Positions 3,919 to 37,480 of a stretch of DNA of 64,000 nucleotides are shown in pieces. How positions within the stretch are numbered: the stretch's first letter is position 1; each line of letters opens with the position of its first letter. Location: NCBI GenBank assembly GCA_030737835.1, contig CM060850.1, positions 12,912,249-12,976,248 on the forward strand. The letters run 5' to 3'. Source of the stretch: Acorus gramineus (lineage: Eukaryota; Streptophyta; Magnoliopsida; Acorales; Acoraceae). A program made the translations under genes and the position numbers. The notes beneath the pieces were generated by a model that had not been told where the DNA came from, made no database searches, and saw only the letters and a list, made by a program, of their open reading frames with translations.

Positions 3919-5193
3919 TCAATTGAGCCAAATAGGTGGAGACTCCCAGACCTGCTTTCCACCCCCAATTCGATATGGTTTCTTTGATATGATGTAGTCA
4001 CTCACACTTCTATTTTCCAAGCTGTAGACACCCATATCTAGATCCCAATGTGGATCTACTGTATTGCCGGTAAAGCAACCATGTTCAGATTCCGTGAAGT
4101 AGATACAGTTCTTCCTCAAACCATGTAAGCTATCATCATCAGCAACGATGATCGATCGGGATTCGTTCTTGCCCAAGAACAACGCCTCGTCGCCTAAGCC
4201 CTCCAATCTGACCCATTGCCGACCATGATCAGTATTGTTATCCAACCTGAACAACAAGAACTCGGCTGTGGTGTTCTTGATGCCTTCACCACCCTGTGAG
4301 AGGTTATCATGCTTCAGCTGCACTGCCAATAGAAGGTCTCCCCCACAGGACTCCACTATATAGAACTTCACATTGTCCATCTCCTGCTCTTCTTCTTGAC
4401 TTCCATCTGGGGATGTCAGAATGAAGCGCTGCTCCTCAGATATTTGCTCGTCCTTGGGTCGTCTCACTGACTGTACATCATCCCAAGTTGTTGAATCTTC
4501 ATCCTCCTCGCCAATATCAAATTCCGTGATATAGCCCAATTCGGAAACAGCGACTAACCGATCCTTGAAAAACACGGCATCCTCAAATGGACCATCGTAA
4601 TCCATGTCGAGGCAGATCCATGTTTTGTCCCCTGGCCTACAGAAACCAAGGTAACCGCAGAAAAAAATGATAACGATTATACAATCTGGCGAGGTGGGCG
4701 CCTTGGAGAGGATGACCTTCTGTATGTATCTCGGACTGCGCCTCCATTTCCTGTGTACCCCAACAGAGATATCCTCTGGACATAACTTGGGAAGCAGAGG
4801 AAGAGGGATTGAACCCCCTGAGAAGGGGTTCAATAGAGAGAGCTTCTTGGTCCCTTCTTGAAACATGACTAGCCATCCTTTTGAATAGCCACAACAGAAG
4901 CGGCGCCCAGACATCTCTGGTATGTCAAACGAATGAACACGGTCCTCGAGCGGGCTGTAGAAGTGGCGCAACCTTGTCGTCGGTGGATCGTCGTAGAGCA
5001 ACAACCAGGGGAGCCGGCTAAGTGGTGGTGTGAGAGACCTCCATGACTTGCACACTCCGCGGAAGCTCATATAGTCCCATGGTGTTGCAAGGTGACTCGC
5101 AATAAGGTCCAACATGTCTCTACATAATTCTGACCAATGTATAATGACTTTGTTCTTGTTCTTGTCGTCGTCGTCTTCAATTTTCTTCATCAT
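3919..5193 (-). CDS. F-box/DUF295 protein (copy 1)
   Basis: A single coding exon of 424 residues. Residues about 19-53 form a degenerate F-box (SELCRDMLDLIASHLATPWD, then RGVCKSWRSL), expected to bind SKP1 in an SCF ubiquitin ligase. The rest is the DUF295 beta-propeller-like region, ending in the block FTGNTVDPHWDLDMGVYSLE and the C-terminal ESPPIWLN. Substrate unknown. The first of two tandem ATGs is taken as start; the paralogue at 39848-41134 begins the same way (MMKKI). The gene has a 5'UTR intron (5211-5680) and a TATA box. An acidic loop (GEEDEDSTTW) interrupts the DUF295 part. The family is expanded and fast-evolving in plants; some members are organelle-targeted, but no transit peptide is evident here. 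Confidence 0.9.
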   Translation of the reverse strand: MMKKIEDDDDKNKNKVIIHWSELCRDMLDLIASHLATPWDYMSFRGVCKSWRSLTPPLSRLPWLLLYDDPPTTRLRHFYSPLEDRVHSFDIPEMSGRRFCCGYSKGWLVMFQEGTKKLSLLNPFSGGSIPLPLLPKLCPEDISVGVHRKWRRSPRYIQKVILSKAPTSPDCIIVIIFFCGYLGFCRPGDKTWICLDMDYDGPFEDAVFFKDRLVAVSELGYITEFDIGEEDEDSTTWDDVQSVRRPKDEQISEEQRFILTSPDGSQEEEQEMDNVKFYIVESCGGDLLLAVQLKHDNLSQGGEGIKNTTAEFLLFRLDNNTDHGRQWVRLEGLGDEALFLGKNESRSIIVADDDSLHGLRKNCIYFTESEHGCFTGNTVDPHWDLDMGVYSLENRSVSDYIISKKPYRIGGGKQVWESPPIWLN

Positions 5194-5210
5194 CTTTTTG
5201 TTATTTCAAT

Positions 5211-7160: not shown

Positions 7161-7482
7161 TAACCGACTTGATTCACCAAAAATAATTAGTTGTCCGTTT
7201 AATGTGCAATAGCTCAAACTATACAATTTACGATTACCAATATATACATGACAACGACATATTGTATCTGCTAATGAACAACAGAAAGAACATAAAAATC
7301 TTAAGCAATGCGTGATATTAAGAAAAATCTGTTCAGCTCCACGTACAACATTGTGCGCAACTCACACATATTTTTCTTTTTAAAAAAAAATTATACACTA
7401 CATTATTAAGAATATTTTGTTGTTATACGAATAGAAGTATATATTAAAATACACTAATTTATTTTTGAAAAAATTAATTAAA

Positions 7483-8155
7483 GGTCTATGAGGACACATC
7501 TGTAATAACAGGTCCTTTGATTTTTTCTTGTTTTCTTTAGGTCCCTAAGTTAGCGGTGGTATTTTGTTTAGATCATTTCATCCAACTTCTATCAATTCTT
7601 TTTTTTTTCTCCCTCTTTTACCCCCAAGTGAACATAAATTGCCTCTATATCTGCCCTAACCTCTTTCTCCCCTAAACTACTGAACAAGATGTGAGACCAC
7701 CTTCGCCAGCCCTCCATTGCGCCAATCTCGACCCCAACGCCGATTGCTCTCCTCGACCTCTCTCGACCATGTCCCACGAGCCGTCTCCCGGTTCTGTGTT
7801 ATATTGTGTACATTGTTATTCCTAATATGTACACTGTTATACCTGTTACAGGTTGTGTGTGTTACACTACGTACACTATTACGCATATTATGTACACTGT
7901 TATACCTCTTACAAATATCAAATTTTGTGTTACACTATGTACACTGTTATGCTCAATGTGTACATTGTTATACCTGTTATGCCCAGTGTGTTACACCGCG
8001 TACACTGTTACGCTCATTTTATATACTGTTATATCTGTAACATGTTAGGCTCACGGACAGGGTCGCGAGAGGGGGTTGGGCTTGCAGGCCCATGAGAGAG
8101 GGGTTAGGCTCACGGACGGAGGTCGCAAGAGAGGGTTGGGCTCACGGGGGTGCAA
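7483..8155. mobile_element. Long-TIR DNA element, copy 1 (right end missing)
   Basis: The left end (7483-7720) is an inverted match of the right end of copy 2 (14150-14425), including GGTCCCTAAGTTAG, the TTTTACCCCC block and the GATCTCGACCCCAACGCCGAT block; this is a terminal inverted repeat of some 250 bases, typical of Mutator-like or foldback elements. Inside is a degenerate minisatellite built on TGTACACTGTTATAC (7795-8045) and a G-rich one (8044-8150). The right TIR is absent; the sequence changes to unrelated spacer after about 8155. No transposase, so non-autonomous. Confidence 0.6.
7795..8045. repeat. TGTACACTGTTATAC minisatellite
   Basis: About nine degenerate units containing TACACTGTTA, separated by variable TACCTGTTA, TGTGTTACACTA and similar spacers. 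The same block occurs at 13634-13885 in copy 2 of the host element. Overlapping frames of about 80-107 codons in three phases follow from the repeat and are not considered genes. Confidence 0.7.
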
Positions 8156-8159
8156 GCTT

Positions 8160-8535
8160 ATATATATAAATGTGGATTTCAATTTTGCTATATGGTCGAT
8201 GTAATTTTTTTTATAATTGTTTAATTCAATTTTCACCAAAAAAATAAAAAAAATAAATATATGTTTGATTGGCTAAATATTAATTAAAAAAGTCCATTTT
8301 TGTATGTGGAGAAGTTGAATTGGTGAAGTGGAATTGGTGAGAGAGATCGAGTTTTTAGGGGAGTCATCGAAGGGTAAGAGATAGGGTTTGATGTAAGAGA
8401 TGCTACTTATTGTTTAAATATGAGGTTAATATATGAGGACCTTTTAAATTAAGTTATAAAAATGTGAGGGGCTTATTAATAAGAGGGGTTTACTTACAAT
8501 TTTGAGGGCCCAAATAGAGCCACCCCTAATGATTA
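8160..8535. repeat. Small repeat with motif shared at 2.8 and 3.2 kb
   Basis: The end GGGCCCAAATAGAGCCACCCC near 8506-8526 is the inverted counterpart of GGTGGCTCTATTTGTG at 2822 and 3183, suggesting one dispersed MITE family. No open frame of interest. Confidence 0.35.
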
Positions 8536-8872
8536 GACCCATCAAATTACAATAAACAACCTGTCATTTTCTTATTGTCAAAGAGGCCCCAAAAGTTGAG
8601 AGGAAAAAATTTCGGGGCGATTTTTTATTAATAAATGGGCCCATTTGTTTTAAAATATTTTGTGAAAAAATATCTCATTATTATAAATAAATATATCATC
8701 ATGAACTACATAAAAAAAAATAATAAAGTGAAATTTATGTATTAGTATCTATGAAATTTTTTTAAAAAATGACGAGTCAATGTGGTCATCATATTCCTCA
8801 CTTTATATCTTTAAACCATGAATTATTTATATTATTACACAATTTACATGGAGAGATCAATATTTAATTTAA

Positions 8873-9412
8873 GGGAAAAATTCATATAAACCCCTGTAAA
8901 CTGACTAAAATTCATATAACCTCTTGACTTTTATTAAAATCTATATAATCCCCTGAAAACCCCTAGTAAATCCAAATAACCCCCTGAATAAAATTTACAT
9001 TTACATATAATGAAATATTTTGTGAATATTATGTTTGGTTAACCCTGATAGAAAATACAGTATACTAAAAAAATCATATGATGTGTTAAAAATGCAGAAA
9101 AGCTTCTATAAATGACGATTTTACTCTTCCAGATAAGGTTTTATAATATATCCAGAGAGGGTAAAATCGTCATTTTCATATGATTTTTCACATTTTTAAC
9201 ACATTGTAGTGGTTTTTTAGTATATTGTGTCTTCAGTGAGGGTTAACTAAACTAAATATTCACAAAATATTAATCATCTATAAACGAAAATTTTATTTGG
9301 AGGGTTATTTGAATTTATTAGATGATTTCAGGGGATTATGGATTTTAAGGAAAGTCAGGGAGTTATATGGATTTCAATTAGATTTAAGGGGGTTGTATAG
9401 ATTTTTCCCTAC
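8873..9412. mobile_element. Foldback (hairpin) MITE, about 540 bp
   Basis: The left arm begins AGGGAAAAATTCATATAAACC and the right arm ends with its imperfect inverse (TGTATAGATTTTTCCCT). The symmetry runs almost to the middle: TAAAATCGTCATTT near 9161 pairs with AATGACGATTTTA near 9111, and TTAACACAT with ATGTGTTAA. Almost the whole unit could fold into one long hairpin. No target duplication is obvious and no ORF is present. Confidence 0.7.
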
Positions 9413-9419
9413 AAAAATA

Positions 9420-10406
9420 TATGTGAACAATATTATATTTATCAAGGGATGATTTAATACCATTTTAAGAAGACTTTATTTATTGTTTGTGCATTTACAC
9501 TACCCACCACAAACACTCTATTTTGCCCATGTATACTCCAAAATAAAATATTAATTTTAGGTATTCACATGTCAACATGCATCCAAATTCCAAATAACAT
9601 GAGTTCAAATATAATATTGTCACAGTTTTCATGTGACCATGAATATTATTATTTTTTGTTTAATTATGTGTGTATATCAATAATGGTATGCAAATATTTT
9701 TAGAAGGGTATACGCTTAAATATAATATTTCTTTTTGAGAGTACACATACAAAAAAACAACAATAAATAATTCATTTTTATAATATTGAGAAAGATGGGT
9801 CTCCTACTACCCAGAAATGAATCTCAATCAGCATATATATCATTTTCAAATCAATTGAAAATATATAGGTGCTTATGCTGAAAATGGAGTGACCAAAAAA
9901 AAAAAGACTTTTTTTTTAATGTCACACACACACATACACACACACACAAAAAGTGGCTGATGTATTCCAGTCATGGAAGCACTGAAATGGAAACCAAAAA
10001 ACTCTATAAATCAAAGTGTTTGAGGAGGACAAAAGGTCTCTTTCAAAAAATCTTTTTGGGAGACTGCAATAGACATCTAATGGTATCAGGTGGAGCAGTT
10101 CAACTGGTGACATCTGAAATTCTGAAACAATCATTTTTTTTATATATTTTATGAAATAATCATTTTTGCATGTATGGTGTGAATCACAGGGTGCATGAAA
10201 ATCTGTGTGTACAGGAGACTGTGAATTGGTATAGAATTCTCTTTCTTCTTTTTTTTAAATTAAATTCAATTTGTTGGATGGTTGGAAAGACCAAGCACAA
10301 CTACCAGAATATGACATCCAAACAGAAAGTATTGAAAAAAATGCTCCCCTTATGTCAGCTGTAACACACTTTCGGGAACAATAGTTTTGGATTTTCAGTG
10401 GATTAA
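9420..10406. other. Spacer with a (CA)n microsatellite
   Basis: No gene recognised. A (CA)n tract with one interruption lies at 9923-9950. Confidence 0.4.
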
Positions 10407-10410
10407 TTAA

Positions 10411-12774
10411 GGGGCCGTTTGGTTCAGCGGAAAGCTGATTTTAAGTCCTGATTTATAAGTGCAGATTGTATAAGTTCTGATAAGTTTTAATCAGTTCAGA
10501 AGAAAAACTGTTTGGTTCAACGAAAATTATAAACACTTATTACAAAAAGTGTGTTTGGTTCAGTACTAAAGAGTAGAGCTTATGATAAGGGTGTTTTGGT
10601 CCATTTAATAAGTGCTGAATGTAATTTGATGTTTGGTTGAAAACTTTATTATTTGCTTATTTTTTCTATTTATTAAAAAAAAATACTTTGATATATGTGT
10701 ATTTAATAAATTATTAGATACTACACTTTGATTACTTGTTAGAACCTGATACAAGCTTATATACATTTTTAAAAAATAACTCAAGACATATGAGCTTTTT
10801 ATGATGTGGTAAATATGCAATCTATATTTACCATATTTGAAATATCATAGTAATCACATACCTGTCAATTTTTTTTTACAACTCTCACCTAATAACGACA
10901 AAGTGGCATTTTTTTCTCCATGTGGCATTGAAGTTTTACATGTAGTTTTTTCAAGCCTAGGTCAAGCCCTTCTACCTGGGTCACTAGGAGCACCTAGTCT
11001 ACCCCTGTCCCTAGGCCATGACTTCTCCCAAACTCTTCCATTTGGTACACGAGCTTAAAGAATCCAAAAACTCAACTAAACATCTAATTCTTTGGCTATC
11101 AGAGCATTTAATAATCCTATTATAGCATACAATATACTTAAATACTAAAGATTAGGTTTGAATCATTAAAACCCTATGAGAAATGCAAGAAATGAAGCAC
11201 TGCATTTACATGTCCATCCCCAAAACCATGGAAACAAATGCATGTGCCTTTCAAATAGAAGAACTGCAAAGACTGCAGGTGAATAACTCTTTACAAATCC
11301 CATACTTCCAAGGCATCTAATACATCACACTGTGAAGACTACTCAAACAAATATCAAACATATATTTCCATGTTCTCTTTTTATTATATGTAATTCTCCT
11401 GTTGTATACCCTGTAAACCAACTCCTAAAAAGAACTGCCTTCTCTAGAAAGACCACAAATGTTAACTAATAAACATTGCCAATGATACAGTGTCAAAGAA
11501 CAGAATCAAAATTGTAAACATGTGTGAGTATGTATATTCTGGTTAAGAGAACATAAGTAGGGCAGATCAGATCAGATCAGATTAGTTTCAACCCATTCAG
11601 AGAACTTGTGGTATAATTGAGTGGATTCATTCAAGCTACTCAATGTGTTAGAAACTATCTTGGGCTCTATTACCCAGTTACCCTATGACAAGGCCTTGTA
11701 CAAATGATTTATTAAATACAACACCATCATCATCAGAGGCTGTAGTTTGGTTACAATTATTGACAATTTTTACAATCATCTCCACCAAATCTGCACTCCT
11801 CCCTAAGTCCATTCAGAACAGATCCCTCTCCACAGAAAAACAACATCACAAGATCAACAAATTCGGACATAGGTTAAGCTATTCAATTAAAATTGTCAGA
11901 ATTTTAGGGAGATGCTCCAACACGCACAATCAATCAACACAAAACGAAAACCAATTAGAGATCTATGTCCAAATCACTAGATAATATTTATACTGAACAC
12001 TTAAGGCATATAGAAACTTCTATTTTTCTCTTTATGATAATCAAATTACATGGAAAAAGACTCCATGTATGTTACAAGAAAGCCATGAATGCAAGCATTT
12101 TATAAATGCAATAAACCAATATATAGCATAGATGTCCCCTGTTCTTAAATAGTTCTGTCAAGTTTTGTATCCTTCATTCCCTTCACACACAGGTACAAAA
12201 ACAGTTTATGAAAAAAATCAAAACAAGCCCATTTTTCTACCGAAGATCAAAATCAAAATCAAAATCACACACAGGTCGATGAAGCTCCCTACCGAAGATC
12301 AAAATCAAAATCAAAATCACACACAGGTCGATGAATCTCCCTACGATGGTCGCTGCTTGATTTTTCTACCGAAGATCCATGGCCTCCGCCTCTGTAAACC
12401 AGCGACTATGCGATTGGTGAAGGAATCTCGAAATGGAGTAGCTAGGGTTTTGAAAGGGTGAAACTGTGAAAGCCACGTTGAATGAGGAGAGAGAGAGAGA
12501 GAGATAGTGAAAAGGTGGGTTATATACCCTGTGTAATAACGGGTATAAGGCAGGGGCTCCTTCGTCTTTTCGCAAGGGTTGGATAAGGGCGGAATGCGTT
12601 CGGCGGATAATAAGTAGGGTTCAATTCACTTTTTTTTTGAGGTGAAAAAACACTAAAAACTGATTTTATAAGAGCTTATAAGTGCATCTAACCAAACAGA
12701 CTGGTAGCCAATAAGAACTGAAAATCCAGATTAAGTAAAATAAGTACTGAAAAGAAGTCGAACCAAACGGCCCC
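10411..12774. mobile_element. PIF/Harbinger-like non-autonomous element, copy 1
   Basis: Left end GGGGCCGTTTGGTTC and right end GAACCAAACGGCCCC are perfect 15-bp inverted repeats, flanked on each side by TTAA (10407-10410 and 12775-12778), consistent with the TTA-type target of PIF/Harbinger elements. The first 500 bases match the left end of the larger copy at 26822-30740, which still holds part of a Harbinger transposase; the interior then diverges. The interior has no recognisable transposase. A 52-bp direct repeat lies at 12238-12341. Confidence 0.7.
12238..12341. repeat. Two 52-bp direct repeats
   Basis: The unit beginning TACCGAAGATCAAAATC occurs at 12238 and 12290, with a partial third start (TACCGAAGATC) at 12369. 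It lies in the right part of the Harbinger-like element, where the leader of a lost transposase gene would be expected. Confidence 0.7.
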
Positions 12775-12870
12775 TTAAGTGTTGAAAGTTTCCTCAGTTT
12801 CAGACTTTCGGTGTGCATGGACTGACTGTTGACCACTGGTCATTGAAAAAACATCGTGAGAGAATTAGAC

Positions 12871-13303
12871 CCTGTCAACAAGTCGGGTCCGGGTCGGATC
12901 GACCCACTAACAGACCACCTAGGTTGAATCAGGAGAAGTAGAGAAACATCTTAAGGGCCTACAATGATTTCATTTCTTTAAATTAGAATATGGTACTGTA
13001 TTATAAATAGTTCTTCACTATTTTGAAATGTTTTATGAAGAAACATTTAAAATATGGTTTGAATTATTATGCTTTTACGTGAAATCAAAATGTTGTAAAA
13101 ATATTTCAAATGTTTAAAATTTTAAATGATTATTCATTGTTTAATTATAAATGTTGAGTCGGATCACGGGTGTTGGATTGAATCATAAATAAAAAAAATT
13201 ACATAGTATTTAAGTTGAGTCAATCTGGTCCATCGAGTTAGGATGCGGTGAACTCAAACTCAACCCGTTTTAATCCGAGTCGACCCGTGACCCATTTACA
13301 GGG
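12871..13303. mobile_element. CCTGTCAA-type (hAT-like) MITE
   Basis: Left end CCTGTCAACAAGTCGGGTC and right end GACCCGTGACCCATTTACAGGG are imperfect inverted repeats rich in GGGTCG/CGACCC. The same end type bounds the elements at 17433-17871 and 46701-47379. No coding content. Confidence 0.45.
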
Positions 13304-13426
13304 CCACAGAGAATGAGATCCCTAGGGGCTGCAAATTCTAAGTTTTTCTTTGTTGACCAACCGTGAGATGTCACTTACAAAAATGTTTTACTGTGTGCAT
13401 GTATTGTTTCTTCCTAATAAATAACT

Positions 13427-14425
13427 TCCATCAATACTATTTTTTTTCTCTCTCTTTTACCCCCAAGTGAACATAAATTGCCTCTATATCTGCCCTAACC
13501 TCTTTCTCCCCTAAACTACTGAACAAGATGTGAGACCACCTTCACCAGCCCTCCATTGCGCCGATCTCGAGTCCAACGCCGATTGCTCTCCTCGACCTCT
13601 CTCGACCATGTCCCACGAGCCGTCTCCCGGTTCTGTGTTATATTGTGTACACTGTTATTTCTAATATATATACTGTTATACCTGTTACAGGTTGTGTGTG
13701 TTACACTACGTACACTATTACGCATATTATGTACACTGTTATACCTCTTACAAATATCAGATTTTGTATTACACTATGTACACTGTTATGCTCAATGTGT
13801 ACATTGTTATACCTGTTATGCCCAGTGTGTTACACCGCGTACACTGTTACGCTCATTTTATATACTGTTATACCTGTAACATGTTAGGCTCACGGACATG
13901 GTCGCGAGAGGGGGTTGGGCTTGCAGGCCCATGAGAGAGGGGTTAGGCTCACGGACGGAGGTCGCAAGAGAGGGTTGGGCTCACGGATGGGCTTGCGAGA
14001 GGGGGTAAGGCTCATCGACGGGTCACGAGAGGGGGGTTAGGCTCGCGGACGGGAGTCGCAAGAGGGAACGAAGTCACGAGAAGGTGGTTGGGCTCGCGGA
14101 TGGGACGCGGGAGACGATCAGGGGACGCGATCGGCGTTGGGGTTGAGATCAGCGCAATGAAGGGGCTGATGGAGGTGGTTTCACAACTTGTTGAGTTATT
14201 TAGGAGAGAAAGGGAGAGATTGAAGGAGATAGAAAGGCAAATGATGTTTACTTAGGGGTAAAAGAGGGAAATAAAAAATAGAATGGATAAAAGTTGGATA
14301 GAAATTGGATGGAAGGACCTAAACAAAATACCACCACTAACTTAGGGACCTAAAGAAAACAAAAAAAAGTCAAGAGACCTATTGTTATTACAGAGGTGTC
14401 CCCAAGGACCTCTAATTAATTTCTC
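13427..14425. mobile_element. Long-TIR DNA element, copy 2
   Basis: Matches copy 1 from its TTTTACCCCC block through both minisatellites almost base for base (13440-13985 against 7600-8150) and continues to a full right end: GAGATCAGCGCAATGAAGG, TTTCACAACTTGTTGAG, GGGGTAAAAGAGGG and GGTGTCCCCAAGGACCTC. That right end is the inverted match of copy 1's left end. The outermost part of its own left TIR is missing. Its right end is the source of the repeated segment in the tandem array that follows. Confidence 0.65.
13886..14110. repeat. G-rich minisatellite
   Basis: About six diverged units of roughly 35-40 bases, each with a GGCTC(A/G)CGGACGG core and a GTCGCGAGAGGGGG tail. Clustered G-runs on the plus strand. 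Two units remain in copy 1 at 8044-8150. Confidence 0.6.
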
Positions 14426-17268
14426 CTTTATTTTTTTATAAAAATAAAATACAATTTTCTACCCCCATATAATATGATAGAGCTCATACATTACAATGAA
14501 GTATATAATGTACTATCATAACATATAAGGTTACAAATATAATTGCAATATGGATATGTAATGTATTTAACTATCTAATATCAATTATATTTATAATTAA
14601 GTTTTAACAAAAAAAATTAGAATCTAAAATCAACATCTGATGTTGAAAAAACAGTTTTGAAAATAATTGCGTGAAAATTATTTTTGAAGTAGAATTAGTT
14701 GGACAACTTGTTAAATGAAATGAATTTAATCAACCTATGGTATATTTATATTTATCTGTGTTTTATATTCATGAATAAAAGAATAAAGAAAATAAAAAGA
14801 AAAGACCAAATGTCAAGAATGGTTTCACAACTTGTTGAATTATTTGGGAAAGAAAGGGAGAGGTTGAAGGAGATAGAGAGTCAAATGATGTTTATTTAGG
14901 GGTAAAAGAGGAAGAAAAAAAAAGGATGGAAGTTGAATGGAAATTGGATGGAAGAACCAAAACAAAATACTATCACTAACTTAGGCACCTCTACTTAATT
15001 TCTCTTTTATTTTTTTATAAAAATAAAATACAATTTTCTACCCCCATATAATATGATAGAGCTCATACATTACAATGAAGTATATAATGTACTATCATAA
15101 CATATAAGGTTACAAATATAATTGCAATATGGATATGTAATGTATTTAACGATCTAATATCAATTATATTTATAATTAAGTTTTAACAAAAAAAATTAGA
15201 ATCTAAAATCAACATCTGATGTTGAAAAAACAGTTTTGAAAATAATTGCGTGAAAATTATTTTTGAAGTAGAATTAGTTGGACAACTTGTTAAATGAAAT
15301 GAATTTAATCAACCTATGGTATATTTATATTTATCTGTGTTTTATATTCATGAATAAAAGAATAAAGAAAATAAAAAGAAAAGACCAAATGTCAAGAATG
15401 GTTTCACAACTTGTTGAATTATTTGGGAAAGAAAGGGAGAGGTTGAAGGAGATAGAAAGGCAAATGATGTTTATTTAGGGGTAAAAGAGGGAGATAAAAA
15501 ATAGAATAGATGAAAGTTTGATAGAAATTGGATAGAAAGACCTAAACAAAATATCACTATTAATTTAGAGATTTAAAAAAAATAAAAAAAAATCAAAAGA
15601 CCTATTGTTATTACAGAGGTGTCCCCAGACACCTCTACTTAATTTCTCTTTTATTTTTTTATAAAAATAAAATACAATTTTCTACCCCCATATAATATGA
15701 TAGAGCCCATACATTACAATGAAGTATATAATGTACTATCATAACGTATGAGGTTACAAATATAATTGTAATATGGATATGTAATGTATTTAACGATCTA
15801 ATATCAATTATATTTATAATTAAGTTTTAACAAAAAAAATTAGAATCTAAAATCAACATCTGATGTTTAAAAAACAGTTTTGAAAATAATTGCGTGAAAA
15901 TTATTTTTGAAGTAGAATTAGTTGGACAACTTGTTAAATGAAATGAATTTAATCAACCTATGGTATATTTATATTTATCTGTGTTTTATATTCATGAATA
16001 AAAGAATAAAGAAAATAAAAAGAAAAGACCAAATGTCAAGAATGGTTTCACAACTTGTTGAATTATTTGGGAAAGAAAGGGAGAGGTTGAAGGAGATAGA
16101 GAGTCAAATGATGTTTATTTAGGGGTAAAAGAGGGAGAAAAAAAAAGGATGGAAGTTGGATGAAAATTGAATGGAAGGACCAAAATAAAATACTATCACT
16201 AACTTAGGCACCTCTACTTAATTTCTCTTTTATTTTTTTATAAAAATAAAATACAATTTTCTACTCCCATATAATATGATAGAGCCCATACATTACAATG
16301 AAGTATATAATATACTATCATAACGTATGAGGTTACAAATATAATTGCAATATGGATATGTAATGTATTTAACGATCTAATATCAATTATATTTATAATT
16401 AAGTTTTAACAAAAAAAATTAGAATCTAAAATCAACATCTGATGTTGAAAAAACAGTTTTGAAAATAATTGCGTGAAAATTATTTTTGAAGTAGAATTAG
16501 TTGGACAACTTGTTAAATGAAATGAATTTAATCAACCTATGGTATATTTATATTTATCTGTGTTTTATATTCATGAATAAAAGAATAAAGAAAATAAAAA
16601 GAAAAGACCAAATGTCAAGAATGGTTTCACAACTTGTTGAGTTATTTAGGAGAGAAAGGGAGAGATTGAAGGAGATAGAAAGGCAAATGATGTTTACTTA
16701 AGGGTAAAAAAGGGAGAGAAAAAATAGAATACATGGAAGTTGGATGGAAATTGGATGGAAGGACCTAAACAAAATACCACCACTAACTTAGGGATCTAAA
16801 GAAAACAAAAAAAAGTCAAGAGACCTATTATTATTACAGAGGTGTCCCCAATGACCTCTAATTAATTTCTCCTTTATTTTTTTATAAAAATAAAATACAA
16901 TTTTCTACCCCCATATAATATGATAGAGCCCATACATTATAATGAAGTATATAATGTATTATCATAACGTATGAGGTTACAAATATAATTGCAATATGGA
17001 TATGTAATGTATTTAACGATCTAATATCAATTATATTTATAATTAAGTTTTAACAAAAAAAATTAGAATCTAAAATCAACATCTGATGTTTAAAAAACAG
17101 TTTTGAAAATAATTGCGTGAAAATTATTTTTGAAGTAGAATTAGTTGGACAACTTGTTAAATGAAATGAATTTAATCAACCTATGGTATATTTATATTTA
17201 TCTGTGTTTTATATTCATGAATAAAAGAACAAAGAAAATAAAAAGAAAAGACCAAATGTCAAGAATGG
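14179..17268. repeat. Five-unit tandem array: transposon end + tRNA-Leu 3' flank
   Basis: Units run 14179-14822 (644 bp), 14823-15401 (579), 15402-16045 (644), 16046-16624 (579) and 16625-17268 (644). Each starts with the right-end segment of the long-TIR element (TTTCACAACTTGTTGA...) and continues through about 400 bases of AT-rich sequence to TGTCAAGAATGG, which is the last 12 nt of the tRNA-Leu gene. Four units stop there and join TTTCACAAC of the next unit; the fifth continues into the intact tRNA. The 579-bp units lack 65 bases of the transposon end. The joint shares TGG with both parents. Open frames of 66 codons starting TTG in each unit are accidental. Confidence 0.9.
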
Positions 17269-17337
17269 GATTTGAACCCATGCCCTTTCGGACCAGTACC
17301 TGAAACTGGCGCCTTAGACCAACTCGGCCATCTTGAC
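17257..17337 (-). tRNA. tRNA-Leu(CAG): tRNA-Leu (anticodon CAG)
   Basis: Minus strand folds as a class II tRNA of 81 nt. The 7-bp acceptor stem GTCAAGA/TCTTGAC is perfect and followed by discriminator A. The anticodon stem-loop CCAGT-TTCAGGT-ACTGG gives CAG, reading CUG leucine codons. A long variable arm (TCCGAAAGGGC) and T-arm ATGGG-TTCAAAT-CCCAT follow. The internal A box (TGGCCGAGTTGG) and B box (GGTTCAAATCC) are present. T-runs for polymerase III termination lie just past the 3' end (plus-strand AAAA at 17241-17249). This 3' flank is the part amplified in the array to the left, so four truncated 12-nt tRNA ends sit upstream in the plus orientation. Confidence 0.95.
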
Positions 17338-23080: not shown

Positions 23081-23260
23081 AAAAAGATACACACAGCCTT
23101 ACTGTAGTCCCAATTACAGTCTATCTCATTTTTAATTGTTTTTTAAATTATACACTCACTTTTTGAAGTGTATGTTGTTTATATAAAATGAAGTATATAC
23201 TGAGATACATAAGTGTGTTTTTTTTATAATGAAAAAATAGAATAAAAAATTGGGTCATAT

Positions 23261-23322
23261 CTTATGATAGGACTCATACACTATGATAGCGTAGTATATA
23301 CTACGCTATCATAACGTATGAG
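23261..23322. repeat. Long palindrome
   Basis: Bases 23282-23313 form a perfect 32-bp palindrome centred on GTATATAC; CTCATAC and GTATGAG extend it outward with a 2-bp mismatch on each side, about 50 bp in all. A related, imperfect version (CTCATACATTA...TACTATCATAACGTATGAGG) is present in each unit of the tRNA-flank array, for example 15060-15110, so both come from the same MITE family. Confidence 0.75.
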
Positions 23323-23399
23323 ATTGCAAAACGGGCTGCAAAAAGGAATGTGTGTATCAGCACTCGTATTTTAAATCATGAGGGCCTTTTTTAAGGCTT

Positions 23400-23760
23400 T
23401 TTGATGTAATGTGTTTGGAAATACTGATTCAAAAGCAGCTTTTAACTTTTAACTATTTTATATATGATTTTTTATGATGTAATGATGTGGGTTGTTTTTT
23501 GAAATACAGATTTCGAGACACAGTCCTTTGATAAAATTCAATATTGTTTTTCATATAAACTGAGACGTTTGATAATTCATATTTAACTTTTAACTTTTTA
23601 AAAAGCTAAATTCATCTCAAATTAGGATGCCAAACGCACCCTAAATTTTAAAGAGATTCACGGCCATGCAGAGAAGAAAGAAGGGTTTGGGCGGTGTTTA
23701 GAGAGAGAGAGAGAGTGTGTGTGTGTGTGGTAGTAGTAGTTTTTTTTTAGGTTCTTTCAC
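23400..23760. repeat. hAT-like MITE remnant and (GA)n(GT)n
   Basis: TGTGTTTGGAAATA at the left and GATGCCAAACGCACCC near 23627 look like degenerate inverted ends. A (GA)n(GT)n microsatellite follows at 23700-23728. Confidence 0.35.
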
Positions 23761-23937
23761 TAATTCTGATTTCAATCAAGTGTCTGAGTATATATATATA
23801 TATATAAACTAGAATATATTTATTTTAAAAAATAGGAAAAATTAATGAGGAGTTCCTGTAATCACTCGTTTATTATTTTTAAGTATCTAAAATTTTTTAA
23901 GTTTTTTTAAATCTTTAAAACGATAAAAAAATTATCT

Positions 23938-24395
23938 TTTTATTGTGTTACACGCATCCTCACCCCTATATATATTAGTATTGTTTAAAGTCGGTTATGC
24001 GAATATCGTGGAACCCGCGTATATTAACACAACTTAATTATCTGTTTTTATCTTTTATCTTTATTATAAACAAGAGATTAACATTCAAACTAACTTTCAG
24101 TTTACTTAAATTCAAAATTATAACTTAACAACTAATAATAAATGTTGCTTATTTTTTGGGAAATTTACATGTACACCCCTGTTAAATCAGTAGTATTCTG
24201 ATGTTATACCTTTTTAAAAAGATAATTACATGTATACTTAAGAAAAATCCATTCATTTTGCAACCATGCCCTTCCGTCGATCTTCAATATCCTGACTAAA
24301 CTAACTACAATTACCTAATTAACAATGACGTATGAATTATCCTTTTTAGCTTGACTAAATCTAACTCTAAAACTCCAAATAACTTGTTAAAAATG
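23938..24395. repeat. Dispersed duplication, copy 1 (with F-box promoter relic)
   Basis: About 450 bases match 43752-44198 closely, from TTTTATTGTGTTACACGCATCCTC to CTAACTCTAAAACTCCAAA. The left part includes TATATATTAG on the plus strand (TATA-like on the minus strand) in the same setting as the F-box promoter relics. No coding content. Confidence 0.7.
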
Positions 24396-24539
24396 TAAAA
24401 ATTCTTTTGTAAATGATAATTTTATTCAAAAATTTTACATATTTAATGCATCGTAGAAAATTTTGATATATTATGTTTTCAACAATGATTAATTAGACAT
24501 AATATTCATATAATAATGTTAATCTGTCAATAAAAATTT

Positions 24540-25060
24540 AACGCACGGAGTTACATGGTCTTTTGAAAAAGATTCAGGGTTACACGGTGTTTTGAAAAAA
24601 ACTAAACGTAGAATAATCTCTGCATCAGAGCAAATGCAGAGCTTAGTTATCCCCAAATTACGGGCTCGACGAACTCCATTCTTATAGCAGCAGTTTCCAT
24701 ACGCAAAGAACTTGCCCACGGCCAGCTTCCATAACCAACTGCTAAAATACCATTCATTATCTTAGGAGCAACTGGCAAATACCATATATGTTTCCACTTT
24801 GCATTATCCAAAGTAGGATAGTCTGGAAACAGAGAATAAATTTCTTGAGTGCGAGGAATATCCATAGTAGATTCGTCCCATTATTGCCGTCGAGCAATAC
24901 CATCCTGAGAGCATTGTGGTGGAGGGGACTCTGATATATATCAATGCAGCCCAATAAGGTGGAAATATATTATACAACACATCCACCTTCCATTCCCCAT
25001 CCAGATCAGATAGAGATTTTCTTCTTTTGTTTGGAGGAATTCCTATCTGGGTATCAATGG
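24540..25060 (-). pseudogene. LINE (non-LTR retrotransposon) fragment
   Basis: In shifting frames on the minus strand the sequence reads as the region after a plant LINE reverse transcriptase: SLSDLDGEWKVDVLYNIF, then LLDGNNGT, then a zf-RVT-like WKHIWYLPVAPKI followed by FFAYGNCCYKNGV. In intact elements this linker and zinc-ribbon-like region lies between reverse transcriptase and RNase H. At least two frameshifts and a stop separate the pieces, and the reverse transcriptase itself is absent, so this is a dead fragment. Confidence 0.6.
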
Positions 25061-25224
25061 GTATGTGTTTTCGATCTCTTGTGGGTGGTTCTTCTGTATT
25101 TTTTGAGTTTTGTGAGTTGATTTTGTGGTTTTTGTGAGAGAAACCCATGGTTGCTTGGCTATAACAGATGGTTGTGATTTATTTTGTAAAATTGGACGGT
25201 GTAGATGAGGGAGGGTATGCAAGT

Positions 25225-25440
25225 GACCATGGGTGTTCTTCAAACCTGACCCGAACTGGTTCAGGTTATCTTGGGTTCGGTTCAGATTGAACCCGATAGG
25301 ATAAAATCCCAACCCGATCCGTGGGTTACGAGCCCACGGGTTAAACCTGATAGGATAAAATCCCAACCCGACCCGAGGGTTACGAGCCCACGGATTGGGT
25401 TAGGTCAGGTTTAACCTGCCCAAGTTACACTCAATTGCAA
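25225..25440. repeat. AACCCG-rich repeat with a 54-bp tandem
   Basis: Rich in ACCCGA/TCGGGT words. The segment starting GATAGGATAAAATCCC occurs at 25295 and 25349, two near-identical 54-bp units. Confidence 0.6.
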
Positions 25441-25966
25441 CTTATCACTCCTAATACACATAATTTGATATATTAAATCTATAATCATAGTATATACTCT
25501 ACTATTTTAAATTACAGGTGTAAGTGTAGGTGTAGGTGTGTGTGTGTATAAACTTTAAAAAAAATAATTGAGAAGCGAGAGAAAAAAAAAAAAGTACGAG
25601 AAACCAAAATATATGACATTAGCACACTCGTAAATTCGTAAACAGAAGCGGAATTGTTAATCCGGAAATACATGGCATAGCACTGAATAGAAAGTCAAAC
25701 AGATTGATCAGCCGCGCCATGCATGCAATTCGCGTAACGCTGAACACTATTCGTTTTGTATGAATTTATTCAGTATATGACATATTCTTTTTTGGGTTAA
25801 AAGACATTTAAGTCCCTACAAATATGAAAAAACCCATATAAGTCTCTACTAAAATTAGGACAGACGTACGAGTCCCTGAAAACTCAAAAAAACTCAATTA
25901 TCATCCCTGAGTTAAATTTCCATCCAAACTTAACGGAATATTCTTAGAATATTCTATCAAATATAA

Positions 25967-26290
25967 TTGTGTAGACATTAAAATCCTTATAAACAGTCAT
26001 AAAGACAAATTAGTCCATGTAAAAGATAAAATTGCCTCTAAAAGACTTTTACATTAAATTGTGTACACATTGCAGTCCCTATAAATAATCATAAAAATAA
26101 ATTAGTCCCCGCAAAAGACAAAATTGCCCCTGAAAGACTTTTACATTTAATTGAATAGACATTACAGTCCTTATAAACAATCGTAAAGACAAATTGGTCC
26201 TTATAAAAGACAAAAATATCTCTGAAAGATTTTTACATTTAATTGTGTAGACATTGCAATCTTATAAACAATCATAAATACAAATAATAT
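25967..26290. repeat. 92-bp tandem repeat in the left foldback arm
   Basis: Units begin TTG(T/A)(G/A)TA(G/C)ACATT at 25967, 26059, 26151 and 26243, three and a half copies. The right arm holds about 1.7 inverted copies at 26515-26690. Confidence 0.85.
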
Positions 26291-26409
26291 GATTTTTTTT
26301 TTATCTTCTATCCTATCGCCCACACTCCACCTGAAGATCTCAATTTGGATGTAAAAAAAATATTTTAATCAGTAGAATGTATTCTTTTTACCTTTTTGTT
26401 TGTTGGAAA

Positions 26410-26525
26410 GTAAAAAAAGTAGCATGAGTTTATTAAAATTCTCTCTGCTAGGAATATAAATAAAAAAATTGTGAAAAATTTATTAAAAAAGTAGCATGAG
26501 TTTATTAAAATTCTTTTTGCAAGGA
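26410..26525. repeat. Short direct repeat at the foldback centre
   Basis: AAAAAAGTAGCATGAGTTTATTAAAATTCT occurs at about 26414 and again at about 26486. Confidence 0.75.
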
Positions 26526-27567
26526 CTAATTTGTCTTTAGATTGTTTATAGGGATTGCAATATGTACACAATTTAATGTAAAAATCTTTCAGAGGCAATT
26601 TTATCTTTTACAGGGACTAATTTGTCTTTATGACTGTTTATAAGGACTTCAATGTCTATACAATTATATGTGATGGAATATTCTGAGAATATTTTGTTAA
26701 GTTTGGATGAAAATTTAATTCAGGGGTGATAATTAGATTTCTCTGAATTTTTAGGAACTCATACGTCTGTCTCAATTTTAGTAGGAACTTATATGGATTT
26801 TTTCATGTTTGTAATGACTTAGGGGCCGTTTGGTTCAGCGGAAAGCTGATTTTAAGTCCTGATTTATAAGTGCAGATTGTATAAGTTCTGATAAGTTTTA
26901 ATCAGTTCAGAAGAAAAACTGTTTGGTTCAGCGAAAATTATAAGCACTTATTGCAAATAAGTGTGTTTGGTTCAGTACTAAAGAGTAGAGCTTATGACAA
27001 GGGTGTTTTGGTCCATTTAATAAGTGCTGAATGTAATTTGATGTTTGGTTGAAAACTTGATTATTTGCTTATTTTTTCTATTTATTAAAAAAAGATACTA
27101 TATTAAATGTCTATTTAATAAATTATTAGATACTACACTTTCATTACTTATTAGAACCTGATACAAGCTTATATAGATTTACAAAAAAATAACTCAAGAC
27201 ATATGTGCTTTTCATGATGTGGTAAATATGCAATCTATATTTACCAATTTTGAAATATCATAACAATCACATACCTGTCAAATTTTTTTTACAACTCTCA
27301 CCTAATAACAACAAAGTGGCATATCCTGTCATGCTACACATTATAAATACAAGAGAATAATATTACAACACTTTATGATTCAAAAATAAAAACCTGTAGA
27401 TCATCAAATTCCTCCAAGCACAGAAAAGGTAATACTTATGCTACATATGTTTTCATGCTACAATAGATAGCCACATGAGAATGTTACAACATTCTCAAAT
27501 AAAAAAAAAGTTTCAGATCAGTAAATATTTACATTACAGTGCTGGTTTCATAATCCAACTTCTACAG

Positions 27568-27998
27568 TCATTTGATGGCCAAGAGTACAAGCAAAAAAAA
27601 GATCACAAACACCATCAATATGATACATATGCATGAACAACATCCAAAGATGAGTATCCCTATGGGGCGTTGAACTGCGACGGCCTTCTCAACCTTCTCC
27701 TGAGCTGGCACCTGGTAAGCCTCGGGTCCGTGCGCCCGACGCACTTCATCAACCCACACAAAGCATTGTGGGTGTTCCTGATTACATGAATGACAACAAA
27801 ATAAATCACACGTTAAATGACACATATGTTTAAAAGGACATAATTAGCAATTCAAGAGGGTTTACACTGTATATGACTTACCAATCTTGCTGGGCACCTC
27901 AAAAACCATCGGCCATAGTTCTTGGAAGTCCTAGCCATCAAGAGGACCATCGGTCCTCGTCCACAGGCGCACTCAATCTCTGAATTTTCGTTCTTCAT
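27568..27998 (-). CDS. GRF-type zinc finger protein with C-terminal membrane helix
   Basis: Two exons on the minus strand: 27998-27882 (39 codons) and 27777-27568 (69 codons and TGA), joined in phase 0 across a 104-bp GT-AG intron. The 108-residue product has a GRF zinc-finger pattern: C10 and C12 (CAC), then YGRWFLRCP with C35, then HPQCFVWVDE with C44. A hydrophobic segment at about residues 78-107 (GILIFGCC...LLVLLAIK) would anchor it in a membrane, tail-anchored. GRF fingers bind single-stranded nucleic acid in known proteins; small GRF-TM genes are common in plants and often found with transposons. It lies inside the Harbinger-like element, so is probably a passenger or accessory gene. 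Open frame and splice sites are intact. Confidence 0.75.
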
Positions 27999-28094
27999 GC
28001 TATCAAAAATATTACAATATTATACAGGATTGTTACAATATTAATATTACAACAGATAAAAAAACGGGCGTGGATACAAGAAAAAAAAAATCCC

Positions 28095-28361
28095 CTAGCG
28101 CCTAGCCATTAGTAGATCGGCTATCTGATCCCGGGTTCTATTCATTTCTATCTGATCTCTCTCCGGTTGGATTGGGGCATATAGTGTTTCAGTGCTACGG
28201 TCCTCATCTGTATTCGTGTTTTCGAATTCGCGAAAGAGGGTATCAGCCTGATTTTCCCTTCGAATATAATTATGGATAGCCATTGTTGCAATGACGATCC
28301 GTACCTGGATGTCAAAAGAATAAGATGCCATCTTCTTCAGTATGGGGAATCGCGCTTTCAA
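28095..28361 (-). pseudogene. C-terminal stub of a PIF/Harbinger transposase (DDE_Tnp_4)
   Basis: Residues KARFPILKKMASYSFDIQVRIVIATMAIHNYIRREN are the conserved end of plant Harbinger/PIF nucleases, which cut and join the TIRs; HNYIRR is the family's signature helix after the third acidic residue. The frame then runs through an acidic tail to RR and TAG. Upstream of K-A-R-F the similarity stops at once and none of the catalytic Asp residues is present, so the gene lost its first three quarters, probably by internal deletion. Confidence 0.75.
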
Positions 28362-28513
28362 TTATGAGAGGATAGTATTATATATTTGAAACAATTGCAA
28401 TTTCTTGGAACCTTATGTGGCTAAAGTATTTTTTGTTAATTTATCTTTGTTAGATTTCATAATGTAATAATGATAAAATATAAATCCATCATTATAAAAA
28501 AAAACACATATTT

Positions 28514-28527
28514 GGGGGGGGGGGGGG
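28514..28527 (+). repeat. Poly-G run
   Basis: Fourteen or so consecutive G residues inside the Harbinger-like element; a likely place for length error in assembly. Confidence 0.8.
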
Positions 28528-29546
28528 TAATATTAAATCAACCAGCCACATCTACCCATAATTGTCCATGTTTACCATTAATCAAATCAGTAATGTATCA
28601 CTCATTCATAACAATGTAAACATATCCCTTCAATCAGCCACATCTAACCATAATTACAGAACCCACAAGAGAAGTGTAGAAATTGCAGTCTTCTGTATCT
28701 TTTTTTAAAACAAGAACAATGTCAGACTAATAATACATTGCTATACCCGAGATTTCTAAAGTATGGACTTCAGGTTCATAATCCAAAACCCACGACTTAT
28801 CTTAGTTGTATCATATACCAATGTCTATACAAGGTTAAATACATAAAGAAAATCCCATCTATTTAGTTGTTTATATTAATAAAGCTATTAACTCCTAACA
28901 TAAAACACATAACAAGACCAATCTATAATATGCAATCATGATTAAACAGTTCTATAAGAAATGAGGTGTGAAACTGTTTCACCTCACATGATATTCTTAG
29001 GTGTCCTTGTTTCAAGCAGGAATGGATGCTTGAAGCCCAACCATAACTCCTTTGCATCATTATAATGTCTTATTGATATCTGTAGTTTGGATTACAAAAA
29101 CAACTAAAGCTGGCCAGAGATGAACTTAAGCATATAGGAAACTACATGAACACACATCTAAACCAGCCACTTTTATAATATCATATTTTCATGGTCCGAA
29201 CCCATATGTGTGGTAATCAAGGTTGGTTGTCTATTGTTAGTCAGTATATATTTTTAGTTAATTTTTGTAAGCCAAAAAGATATCATATAAATAGAACTTT
29301 CTGTCTGCATGTTAGAGGTCATATTAAAGCATACAATATCCCTTGACATACTGGACTTTAGGTTTCATTATTACACTTTGAAGGATGAGAAATGATATGC
29401 AATTTTGAGAACAACATTTTAACAACAAAGGCATGATTTATACAGATCGAACACACACATTTGGAGACTGTATTGGACTTCCTAAAGAAGAACAACTTCT
29501 TCAAAGATAAACAACCAGTGTCATAAATTTTTTAAAGAAAAAGCTT

Positions 29547-30192
29547 AAGTTTAACCTATGAGACCTAAAAACTTAAAAAATCCTCACAAATCAGGGCATC
29601 ACCAACCAATAAAGATCATAATCTATAGACAATTCGACTTCAAAAATTAGGTATTGCACAAAAAAGCTACCAATCACCTACATTGAACCTGATCTACCCT
29701 GGATGTCAAAAAAAAAACATAATCAAGCCGATGATCCACACATATTCGTCACTACAGAAACCCTAAACAGTATAAAATCAATAGATCTGAAGCACACAAG
29801 CATGAAACGAGGAGATTTGCTCGGTTTTACCTTGATGGTTGGTTGGGGAGGAGAGCCAAAGAGACTATGTAAGTTCAACCTATGAGACCTAAAAACTTAA
29901 AAAATCCTCACAAATCAGGGCATCACCAACCAATAAAGATCATAATCTATAGACAATTCGACTTCAAAAATTAGGTATTGCACAAAAAAGCTACCAATCA
30001 CCTACATTGAACCTGATCTACCCACAATAGGTAAAAAAACATAATCAAGCCGATGATCCACACACATTCGTCACTGCAGAAACCCTAAACAGTATAAAAT
30101 CAATAGATCTGAAGCACACAAGCATGAAACGAGGAGATCTGCTCGGTTTTACCTTGATGGTTGGTTGGGGAGGAGATCCAAAGAGACTATGT
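29547..30192. repeat. 322-bp tandem duplication
   Basis: The segment starting AAGTTTAACCTATGAGACC at 29547 is repeated from 29871 (AAGTTCAACCTATGAGACC) and both copies end GAGACTATGTA. Few differences, so the duplication is recent relative to the element. The frames at 29703-29885 and 30045-30290 lie in it and show no domain. Confidence 0.9.
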
Positions 30193-30935
30193 AGCAGATT
30201 GAAGTGTCGGATGGTTCGCCGAAGACGGTGAGACGGAGATCGGTGTGTATCCGACCCAAATCGTGAGGAAGAAGCAGATCGGAGTGTCAATCAGTCGACG
30301 AACATCATGATCTTCTCGAATGAGAACGTTGAACCCGAGATTTCAGAGTTTTTTTGGGTCTCCGGCGCACCTCATCAGAACAGGCCGAACGTTGGGGTCG
30401 ATTTAGGGAAGAAAATATGTCTGTGGAGCTGCCGTTCGTGGTCTGTCTTCGTTGGCCAAAATGGAGGAGAGAGAGGACACTTCGAGTGAAAACGGGTTTA
30501 AATACCTCACGTAAATACACGATAATGTCAGGGGCATTTGCATCTTTTAACAGCTCGGGATGAACCACTGAAGGCGTTTGCCGAGTAAATAAGTTGACAT
30601 TAAGGAGTTGAATTTTTTTGGGTATAAATGACTGAATGAGGAAATGGTTCAGTGCTTATAAGTTACCTAACCAAACAAGCTGAAAGCAAAATTTCAGCTT
30701 CAAGCAGAATAAGCTCAGTTTATAAGTGCAACCAAACAGCTTAAATGTTTGTAACCCTTCTTTTTTCCTCCCTTTCAGTAACCGCTGTTCGTCCGTGGAA
30801 GCTTTTCCTTTCTTTACTGACTGAACAGTCCATATGACGTATTCGCAAAGCTACATATTAAATAAAAATATAAATATCAGATTAATTGAATTAAAAAATT
30901 AATAATAAATAAATAAATAAATAAAAACTAATTAT

Positions 30936-31252
30936 TGTTGTAAACTAAGTAAAATATAACTACATAAACAAAATACACAAGCAAATAGAGAAGTAGAGAG
31001 GGTATTTATTCTTCTTTGTTGGTTGATTGAATACAAGAGAAGCCCCTCTATTTATAGGGTGCATAGAGGAATCCCAAAGGTGGGGAGTTACAAGTCTATA
31101 GAGGTGAGGGGAGATAGTGGGGCAATAATGGGAGTGTTATGGAATAGAAGAGTGGGGAAGGTTATGGAGTTGAATGAGGGGGTTATATGGAGTTGAAGAG
31201 TGGGGGGGATTATGGGTTAGAGAAGTGGTGGTTATCCACCATATTCACAACA
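30936..31252 (-). repeat. 3' LTR of Ty1-copia element
   Basis: 317 bp, TGTTG...CAACA, matching 37163-37479 with roughly 20 differences by eye. The minus strand has a TATA box (CTATAAATAGAGGGG) as expected for the element's orientation. A polypurine tract (AAGGGGGAG on the minus strand) abuts it at 31253-31261. Confidence 0.9.
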
Positions 31253-31503
31253 CTCCCCCTTGGATGACCACCACGCTAAGAAAATTGCCTCATTAAAACC
31301 TTGCTTGGAAAACCCAATGGGAAAAAACCAAAGCGAAGGAAAAAGAGTACAATGTAACTTAATCGTATAATAGTGTATGCGTTTGACACTGCATCATTAA
31401 AATCTTGTCAGAAAAACCCAATGGGACAAAACCTAGGCGAAGGAAAAAGAGTACAGTTCGTAAAATGTCATAAAAAATTACTCCCCCTCATAAGTACAAG
31501 ATT

Positions 31504-34745: not shown

Positions 34746-35119
34746 AAATACTCCATATTGTTTTCACTTATAGTCTCAATATGATATCCATTAATATGAA
34801 TATCCTTAAAACTTAGCAGATTTCTTCTGGATCTTACTAAATATAATGCATCATTAATACAAAATTTTGTACCTCCTGGTAATATTATATTTGCTCTTCC
34901 AGAGCCTTCAATTAATTTTGTAGTACCAGAGATAGTATTAACATTTGCATTAATTAATGTCAACGTTGAAAAATATTTTCTATTTCGTAGGATCGTATGC
35001 GTTGTAGCGCTGTCTGCCAGACAGATGTCACCAACCATAGCCATTCTTGTAAAAAGAAAAACGAAATAAATAAGATAAATATAGAAAACATAAAATTGCA
35101 TTTTATTGAAATAAAGCAA
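34718..35119 (-). pseudogene. Copia aspartic protease region
   Basis: CLADSATTHTIL is the protease active-site box (D-S-A in place of the commoner D-S-G). The stretch before it is A/T-rich and unlike protein, ending in a pyrimidine-rich TTTTTACAAG, which resembles an intron 3' end between gag and pol. Confidence 0.8.
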
Positions 35120-35177
35120 AGTACATAAAAAAAAAGGGAAGGAAAATTACATAAAATAAATGCTAAAAAGGGAAATA

Positions 35178-36223: not shown

Positions 36224-36801
36224 GGTAAATATCTCTATAAGAAAAATGAAGTAATGTCACTACATGTATTGAGAATATAAATAAAAATATAAACAATAAA
36301 ACTTGAAGGTTCAGCAACAAGTATTTTTAATACCGATATATTTGAATAAACCATAATAATTTTCAAAATCATGGATTTATTGAAAAACCCATACAAAAGG
36401 GACTACCTTTATTTTTTTTAAAAATGTGCACTATTCACTAAAATATGTCTACTTTTAATAGAAAAAAAATGTATTTATAAAGACTATATATCTCAACTCA
36501 TCAAAATCTAGAAAGTGATCTACCAATAAGATTATTAAATAAAATTAAGTATACCCATCCGGTTAAGAATGCACTACAATGACATTGTGAGAACTATCTT
36601 TTCTAGTCTAGAATAAAAAAAAGGAATTTGGGCATGTATGCTATTTTGGAAATCTGAAGCCAAACATTAAGAAAGGTTGTGTCAATTTGATAAGCAAGCA
36701 GAAAGTCATTCCAAGTATTTTCTAAAAACTAGCATGTGTACAAAAGATTTGATTGTGCTAATTAATGAAATATACAGAGAATATGCAAAAAGTGGGATAC
36801 T

Positions 36802-37479: not shown

Positions 37480-37480
37480 A

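Follow-up and report, generated by a model that had tools for sequence, protein, structure and literature searches.

We describe a tandem array beside a tRNA-Leu(CAG) gene in a 64,000-nucleotide stretch of the Acorus gramineus genome (called the window here; C4:12912249-12976248 in an assembly of 398.6 Mb and 137 contigs), whose genes and elements are of plant type. The array holds five copies of a segment that runs from the last nucleotides of the tRNA through its 3' flank into the end of a putative Mutator-like transposon. The five-copy array appears to be one instance of a pattern in this genome, a tendency of the DNA just downstream of tRNA genes to be copied in tandem with one edge at the end of the gene, and the pattern may be a relic of collisions between replication and tRNA transcription. 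The evidence for this comes from the structure of the array, from a survey of other tRNA loci and from a sister locus on the same contig. A first-pass annotation of the window had treated the array as a singular, transposon-linked event. The singularity is not supported, as the sister locus carries a fusion with a non-transposon partner and 3' repeats are found at other tRNA genes. What does stand of the origin proposed there is a tandem duplication at a TGG microhomology with exchange in the register of a dimer.

Structure of the array

The features of the array, by window position, are as follows.

14179..14822, plus strand: unit 1 (644 nt), consisting of the terminal inverted repeat (TIR) end, the tRNA 3' flank and the last 12 nt of the tRNA
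14823..15401, plus strand: unit 2 (579 nt), TIR shortened by deletions
15402..16045, plus strand: unit 3 (644 nt), mosaic TIR
16046..16624, plus strand: unit 4 (579 nt), deletions as in unit 2
16625..17268, plus strand: unit 5 (644 nt), continuing into the intact tRNA
17257..17337, minus strand: intact tRNA-Leu(CAG), its 3' end facing the array (ARAGORN, Rfam RF00005)
17268..17278, minus strand: GGTTCAAATCC, which we take from general knowledge of the motif to be the B box; the duplication breakpoint lies at its edge

Mapping of the unit borders over 14179-17268 agrees with the first-pass description of five units alternating as 644-579-644-579-644, each made of the right TIR end and the tRNA-Leu(CAG) 3' flank and ending 12 nt inside the tRNA. 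Also in line with that description, only the last unit keeps the whole tRNA (a single tRNA is called, by ARAGORN and Rfam alike) and the terminator is repeated, every unit holding the downstream T-runs of the tRNA. Units 2 and 4 are shorter by two deletions, of 60 nt and 5 nt, which account for the difference between 644 and 579 nt. Along the direction of the tRNA, the order is intact tRNA, 3' flank, outer part of the TIR and last 12 nt of the tRNA, and then the same again. The duplicated segment thus has one edge 12 nt inside the tRNA-Leu 3' end and the other in the TIR, ~640 nt farther downstream.

The four internal joints are identical, with TGTCAAGAATGG joined to TTTCACAACTTGTT. Their parents are GGAGGTGG followed by TTTCACAAC in the element and TGTCAAGAATGG followed by GATTTGAACC at the tRNA, and TGG is indeed common to the joint and both parents. 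The array is a plain tandem duplication of one segment with a 3-nt microhomology, and the head-to-tail copies, with TGG at this joint and CATT at the joint of the sister locus, are what is expected of microhomology-mediated tandem duplication. The exact 17-nt joint occurs four times in the 398.6-Mb assembly, always within the array. A search for it at unrelated loci, which the first-pass annotation had named as a check on whether the unit is a mobile element of its own, found none, and that candidate was rejected. An assembly artefact as the source of the five units is unlikely, because the units differ from each other by 3-12% in the TIR part (the flank part differs by 0.3-2.0%). An origin from a tRNA primer-binding site was rejected as well, the bases adjoining the tRNA end not being TGG.

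Repeats at other tRNA loci

The survey covered 55 other single tRNA loci of this one genome, picked without regard to repeats. They comprise 28 loci from 63 Rfam tRNA matches (the 35 in clusters were left out), 11 tRNA-Leu loci (12 of 40 matches were taken, and L089, which has no tRNA by ARAGORN, was not counted) and 16 tRNA-Ala loci out of 29 matches, the L113 pair being used for the cluster comparison only. The window locus and its sister, both ascertained, stand outside the 55. Flanks were examined over ~1.5 kb per side at the 28 loci, over 0.7 kb at the 11 tRNA-Leu loci and over 0.5 kb at the 16 tRNA-Ala loci, so that long units would be missed in the last two sets. A positive was a direct repeat with its inner edge between -45 and +50 nt of the tRNA 3' end and its second copy farther into the 3' flank. 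The strict settings were low-complexity masking, an E-value of at most 1e-6, identity of at least 78% and a period of at least 70. Five loci (L042, L073, L079, L080 and L084), presumably organelle-derived, had no event and were kept in the denominator. A tRNA-Pro pattern typed by hand gave no match.

Under the strict settings 3'-anchored repeats were found at nine of the 55 loci and repeats at the 5' mirror position at none (9:0, sign test 0.004). Random pseudo-centres were positive in 16 of 1500 cases (Fisher 5.9e-8), and this p-value, like the later one, is optimistic, as the random points overlap and were drawn from ~79 kb (the window and a region of C10); the 5' mirror is the cleaner control. 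By batch, the strict positives were 6 of 28 in the first set and 3 of 27 in the later Leu and Ala sets (Fisher 0.004 against random points). With loose settings the counts became 11/55 on the 3' side, 0/55 on the 5' side, 9/600 for pseudo-centres and 10/393 for displaced centres in tRNA loci. Directly adjacent copies were present 3' at six loci (L035 Lys, L049 Ile, L051 Ile, L076 Arg, L083 Asn and L092 Leu) and 5' at none of the 55, with 6/600 for pseudo-centres and 1/393 for displaced centres. Taking one per locus, the innermost strict edges on the 3' side lie at -40, -28, -17, 0, 13, 17, 29, 31, 32 and 913 nt from the tRNA 3' end, and those on the 5' side at 770, 1319 and 1358.

Four loci serve as examples. 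At a tRNA-Ile gene (C3:27840948) a 660-nt unit starts from tRNA position 34 and its copies are 96% identical, at another (C6:21376806) a 558-nt unit starts from position 57, and at a tRNA-Lys gene (C32:3154689) a 285-nt unit starts at the tRNA end, in the terminator. Behind the intact tRNA-Asn gene at C2:22534823 (L083, C2:22533300-22536400) five truncated tRNA 3' ends stand in tandem, each of which retains a B-box-like stretch. From the 3' excess of the survey together with these truncated tRNA-Asn ends, the tRNA, and not the transposon, looks like the cause of the duplication. The 3' flanks of the nine strict or near-strict loci and the two sister loci show no relation to one another from ~30 nt past the tRNA onward, the sister pair excepted; the 5' flank of L085 is shared with the two sister loci at 69%.

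Clusters of complete tRNA genes were also compared, the Asn/Asp cluster on C1 lying outside this analysis. In five of the six groups the alignable sequence of the first copy starts 1-37 nt upstream of the gene, and two of the six (Cys and the Ala pair) are not clean tandem arrays. In the tRNA-Cys cluster L068 (C7:13838500-13844000) a core of ~140 nt, from -20 to ~45-55 nt past the gene, stands at both outer ends of the array.

The sister locus and the history of the units

The window lies partly in a segmental duplication, in which window positions 1181-45197 correspond to C4:13034089-13055267, ~113 kb apart and in the same orientation. Identity is 94-98% in the main blocks with the array left out, and substitutions amount to 1.1-4.1% in three aligned segments. 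At the sister locus (C4:13034089 onward) the element again adjoins this tRNA. It has one right TIR there, and the locus carries a tandem duplication of its own of ~105 nt (period 104), in which TGTCAAGAATG is joined to AAATGAATTT and AATG is common to both sides (4 nt; CATT on the other strand). The junctions in the window and at the sister locus have different partners, that of the sister being no transposon, and on the tRNA side they coincide to within 1 nt.

The variants that the first and last units of the array were said to share are real, both units carrying GAGTTATTTAGGAGAGA, which is also found at the sister locus with one difference, but the order of events cannot be read from these variants alone. 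Set against 20 further TIR copies of the family, the outer units agree with the majority at columns 17 and 28 and are derived at column 24 (three variable positions); at columns 42 and 57 it is units 2 and 4 that show the family state, the outer units again being derived. Units 2, 3 and 4 are 11-12% different from unit 1 in the TIR part. A unit-by-unit phylogeny, the check that the first-pass annotation had called for, does not bear out a simple ordering of outer against inner units. A tree of the first 168 TIR columns that omits unit 3 unites units 1 and 5 with the sister copy to the exclusion of units 2 and 4 (ultrafast bootstrap, UFBoot, 93), and within that clade unit 1 pairs with the sister copy and not with unit 5 (UFBoot 96). 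When the whole TIR is used and the mosaic unit 3 is included, the pairing of unit 1 with the sister copy has a UFBoot of only 77. The simple ordering is thus not safe on these data. Either the inner TIRs are older or they were overwritten by gene conversion from another family copy, and such conversion would end where homology ends; no near-identical donor was seen among the family copies scored (40 of 380 candidates). In the TIR of unit 3 (window 15402-16045), 18 of 21 changes against the family majority are C>T or G>A, as expected of methylated DNA.

Column 631 is C beside the tRNA in both loci and T in the other copies. This column and TIR sites 93 and 123, polarised with the same 20 family copies, place unit 1, rather than unit 5, with the sister copy, and they suggest that the array may be older than the segmental duplication and that the sister lost units. 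At sites 209 and 231 it is instead unit 5 that goes with the sister copy.

The transposon and its surroundings

The element that contributes the TIR is bounded in the window as follows.

7458..7466, plus strand: left 9-bp target-site duplication TTTATTTTT, the same at the sister locus
7467..14426, no strand assigned: Mutator-like TIR element with TIRs of ~290 nt; this copy is larger owing to an insert of 5.3 kb that has a direct repeat of 564 nt
14427..14435, plus strand: right 9-bp target-site duplication TTTATTTTT, which recurs in every unit (15006, 15650, 16229 and 16873)

The assignment as Mutator-like fits because the element is flanked at both sister loci by a perfect 9-bp target-site duplication. 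Its ~290-nt TIRs are 80% identical to each other and dispersed, with at least 40 matching rows outside the two sister loci (40 of 380 candidates were scored). A Pfam scan for the transposase of Mutator-like elements (MULEs) in two 110-aa frames within the insert gave nothing; relatives of the element were not searched. The edge of the duplication lies in the TIR ~250 nt from the end of the element, not at its terminus.

The 564-nt direct repeat (97%; window 7584-8147 and 13423-13986) brackets the 5.3-kb insert and has no counterpart at the sister locus. The repeat and the insert are probably an insertion with an unusually long target duplication. As they are absent from the sister locus, and as the two 564-nt copies are closer to each other than to the sister locus, the insert is probably later than the split of the two loci. 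Inside it lies a palindromic, foldback-like element (8860-9420, 76% self-complementary). A copy of the element on C10 was considered as sharing the flank and rejected: the match covers the element and an AT-rich insertion site, and ARAGORN finds no tRNA in the 20 kb there.

Elsewhere in the window the segmental duplication is broken by ~15 kb (23099-37984) with a Copia-type retrotransposon, recognised by its Pfam domains. Two minus-strand reading frames (3922-5205 and 39851-41143) have KIB1-4 beta-propeller domains, and the sister copy of the 3922-5205 region matches the 39851-41143 region at 74%.

Mechanism and alternatives

The explanation that we favour, at about an even chance, is that the array is a tRNA-anchored tandem duplication made by head-on fork arrest and template switching back over the flank, with the transposon, held at the same strength as part of this explanation, as a passenger that happened to lie in the tRNA flank. 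A fork approaching from the 3' side of the gene would be arrested head-on by the tRNA gene bound by RNA polymerase III (Pol III) and TFIIIC. The nascent end, or a broken fork end, would leave its template and rejoin it ~80-660 nt behind with little microhomology, and the 3' flank would be copied again up to the barrier. The product would be an intact tRNA followed by copies of the 3' flank, each beginning with a truncated tRNA end, and later unequal exchange would alter the copy number, here in dimers of 644+579. At the readable joints microhomology is 0-4 nt, with an imperfect 10-nt match at L035. An edge at the tRNA with extension into the 3' flank, as expected of polar fork arrest, is seen at 9/55 loci against 0/55 for the mirror, and in the window array too. 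The polarity of the repeats weighs most in this reading. Selection gives us no reason to expect the 3' kind, since a duplication with its edge inside the tRNA would leave the gene intact on either side. Further points in favour are the common tRNA position of the window and sister junctions, the unrelated 3' flanks of the positive loci and the starts of most tRNA clusters shortly before the gene.

Parts of this mechanism are known from yeast. In budding yeast, forks that run into tRNA transcription from the opposite direction are arrested (PMC5368702), restarted forks in fission yeast switch template more often when a tRNA gene is present (PMC6358216), and a yeast duplication with a microhomology breakpoint inside a tRNA has been described (PMC2518615). 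Extended to plant tRNA genes as a class, the idea becomes more tentative, and we rate it somewhat below an even chance: such genes may be polar generators of tandem duplications through head-on fork arrest, an edge inside the gene giving arrays of truncated ends and an edge just upstream giving new tRNA genes and so clusters.

Several points weigh against this account, beyond the optimistic Fisher values. The zone of -45 to +50 nt was chosen after the data had been seen. The edge is clearly inside the tRNA at only three of the 55 loci (L049, L051 and L083), and the three strict positives among the later 27 loci start 13-32 nt behind the tRNA. Five of the 11 loose positives (L043, L082, L085, L098 and L111) consist of copies that do not adjoin each other and may represent repeats of another kind, and L076 and L111 are weak positives. 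Exact 3'-end searches with tRNA-Glu (12 sites) and tRNA-Lys (7 sites) found no close pairs, a result that neither supports nor refutes the account, about one pair being expected over 19 sites at a rate of 3 in 55. In the Ile cluster group, the alignment with one copy begins at -3 and that with another at -268, not at the gene. The sister duplication may descend from the ancestral array by deletion and so may not be a second event. We infer fork arrest and head-on replication at these loci from the polarity of the repeats, and the review cited above for budding yeast (PMC5368702) calls fission yeast tRNA barriers non-polar. Stalling at tRNA genes, according to PMC6358216, usually alters recombination only together with other replication faults.

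The main rival dispenses with fork switching. Two opposed nicks, or one staggered break, close to the 3' end of the tRNA and in its 3' flank could have been filled in and joined, the tRNA end being simply a breakable site. The small junction microhomologies (three bases, TGG, in the window; four, CATT, at the sister locus; none at L051 and L092) suit this, and fill-in at breaks yields small tandem duplications (PMC8355091). We nevertheless consider it unlikely, as the 3' polarity (9:0 strict, 11:0 loose) goes unexplained unless the breaks themselves were polar, and the longer units (285-660 nt) require widely spaced nicks. Less probable again is that the array is, as in the first-pass annotation, an ordinary TIR-tRNA microhomology duplication, with no general cause in the tRNA, the survey excess being due to chance or to the choice of zone. 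The TGG microhomology, the presence of other tandem duplications in the window and the setting of the zone after the fact would all fit such an accident, but it has to contend with an excess over the controls, an empty 5' mirror and a later batch in which the excess holds by itself (3/27, Fisher 0.004), as well as with a sister locus that reuses the same tRNA position.

Pol III itself could also supply the primer, if a paused or read-through transcript remained on the template as an R-loop and primed synthesis into the 3' flank. The edges would then mark RNA 3' ends and terminators, and at L035, L043 and L098 they do lie at or beside T-runs; the polarity fits too. This seems to us very improbable in view of the tRNA clusters: in five of six groups the 5' edge precedes the gene by 1-37 nt, and little or no transcript is expected there.

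Relation to known systems and significance

Comparison with known systems shows partial likenesses. The yeast tRNA duplications of PMC2518615 share the microhomology joint, the breakpoint inside a tRNA and the appeal to Pol III stalling; they are experimental and of a 115-kb class, whereas those described here are ~80-660 nt, fixed in a plant genome and on the 3' side only. The Tetris TIR-220 and Xmix/Xstir arrays (PMC9659126) likewise have a TIR within the tandem unit. Unlike them, the unit here adds the host tRNA flank and tRNA 3' end, and involvement of this TIR was not seen at the other tRNA loci. The plastid trnF pseudogene arrays (PMC3786074) also consist of tandem tRNA pseudogene copies, but they concern one plastid gene, where here nuclear genes of several isotypes are affected. 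With MULEs the element has in common the long TIRs and the 9-bp target-site duplication; here it would be a passenger, and the duplication edge lies ~250 nt inside its end.

Among the titles and abstract beginnings listed by searches of open-licence literature, no tRNA-anchored, polar duplication of 3' flanks in a nuclear genome is described. Experiments in yeast have shown fork arrest at tRNA genes, and its shaping of plant genomes is, as far as those searches show, undescribed. Polar duplication footprints anchored at tRNA genes can be tallied in any genome assembly, and they would serve as a fossil record of transcription-replication conflict. They also offer a route by which clusters of tRNA genes and small satellite-like arrays could start. 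If plant tRNA genes do act as polar generators of tandem duplications, genome sequence alone would record where forks met tRNA genes head-on.

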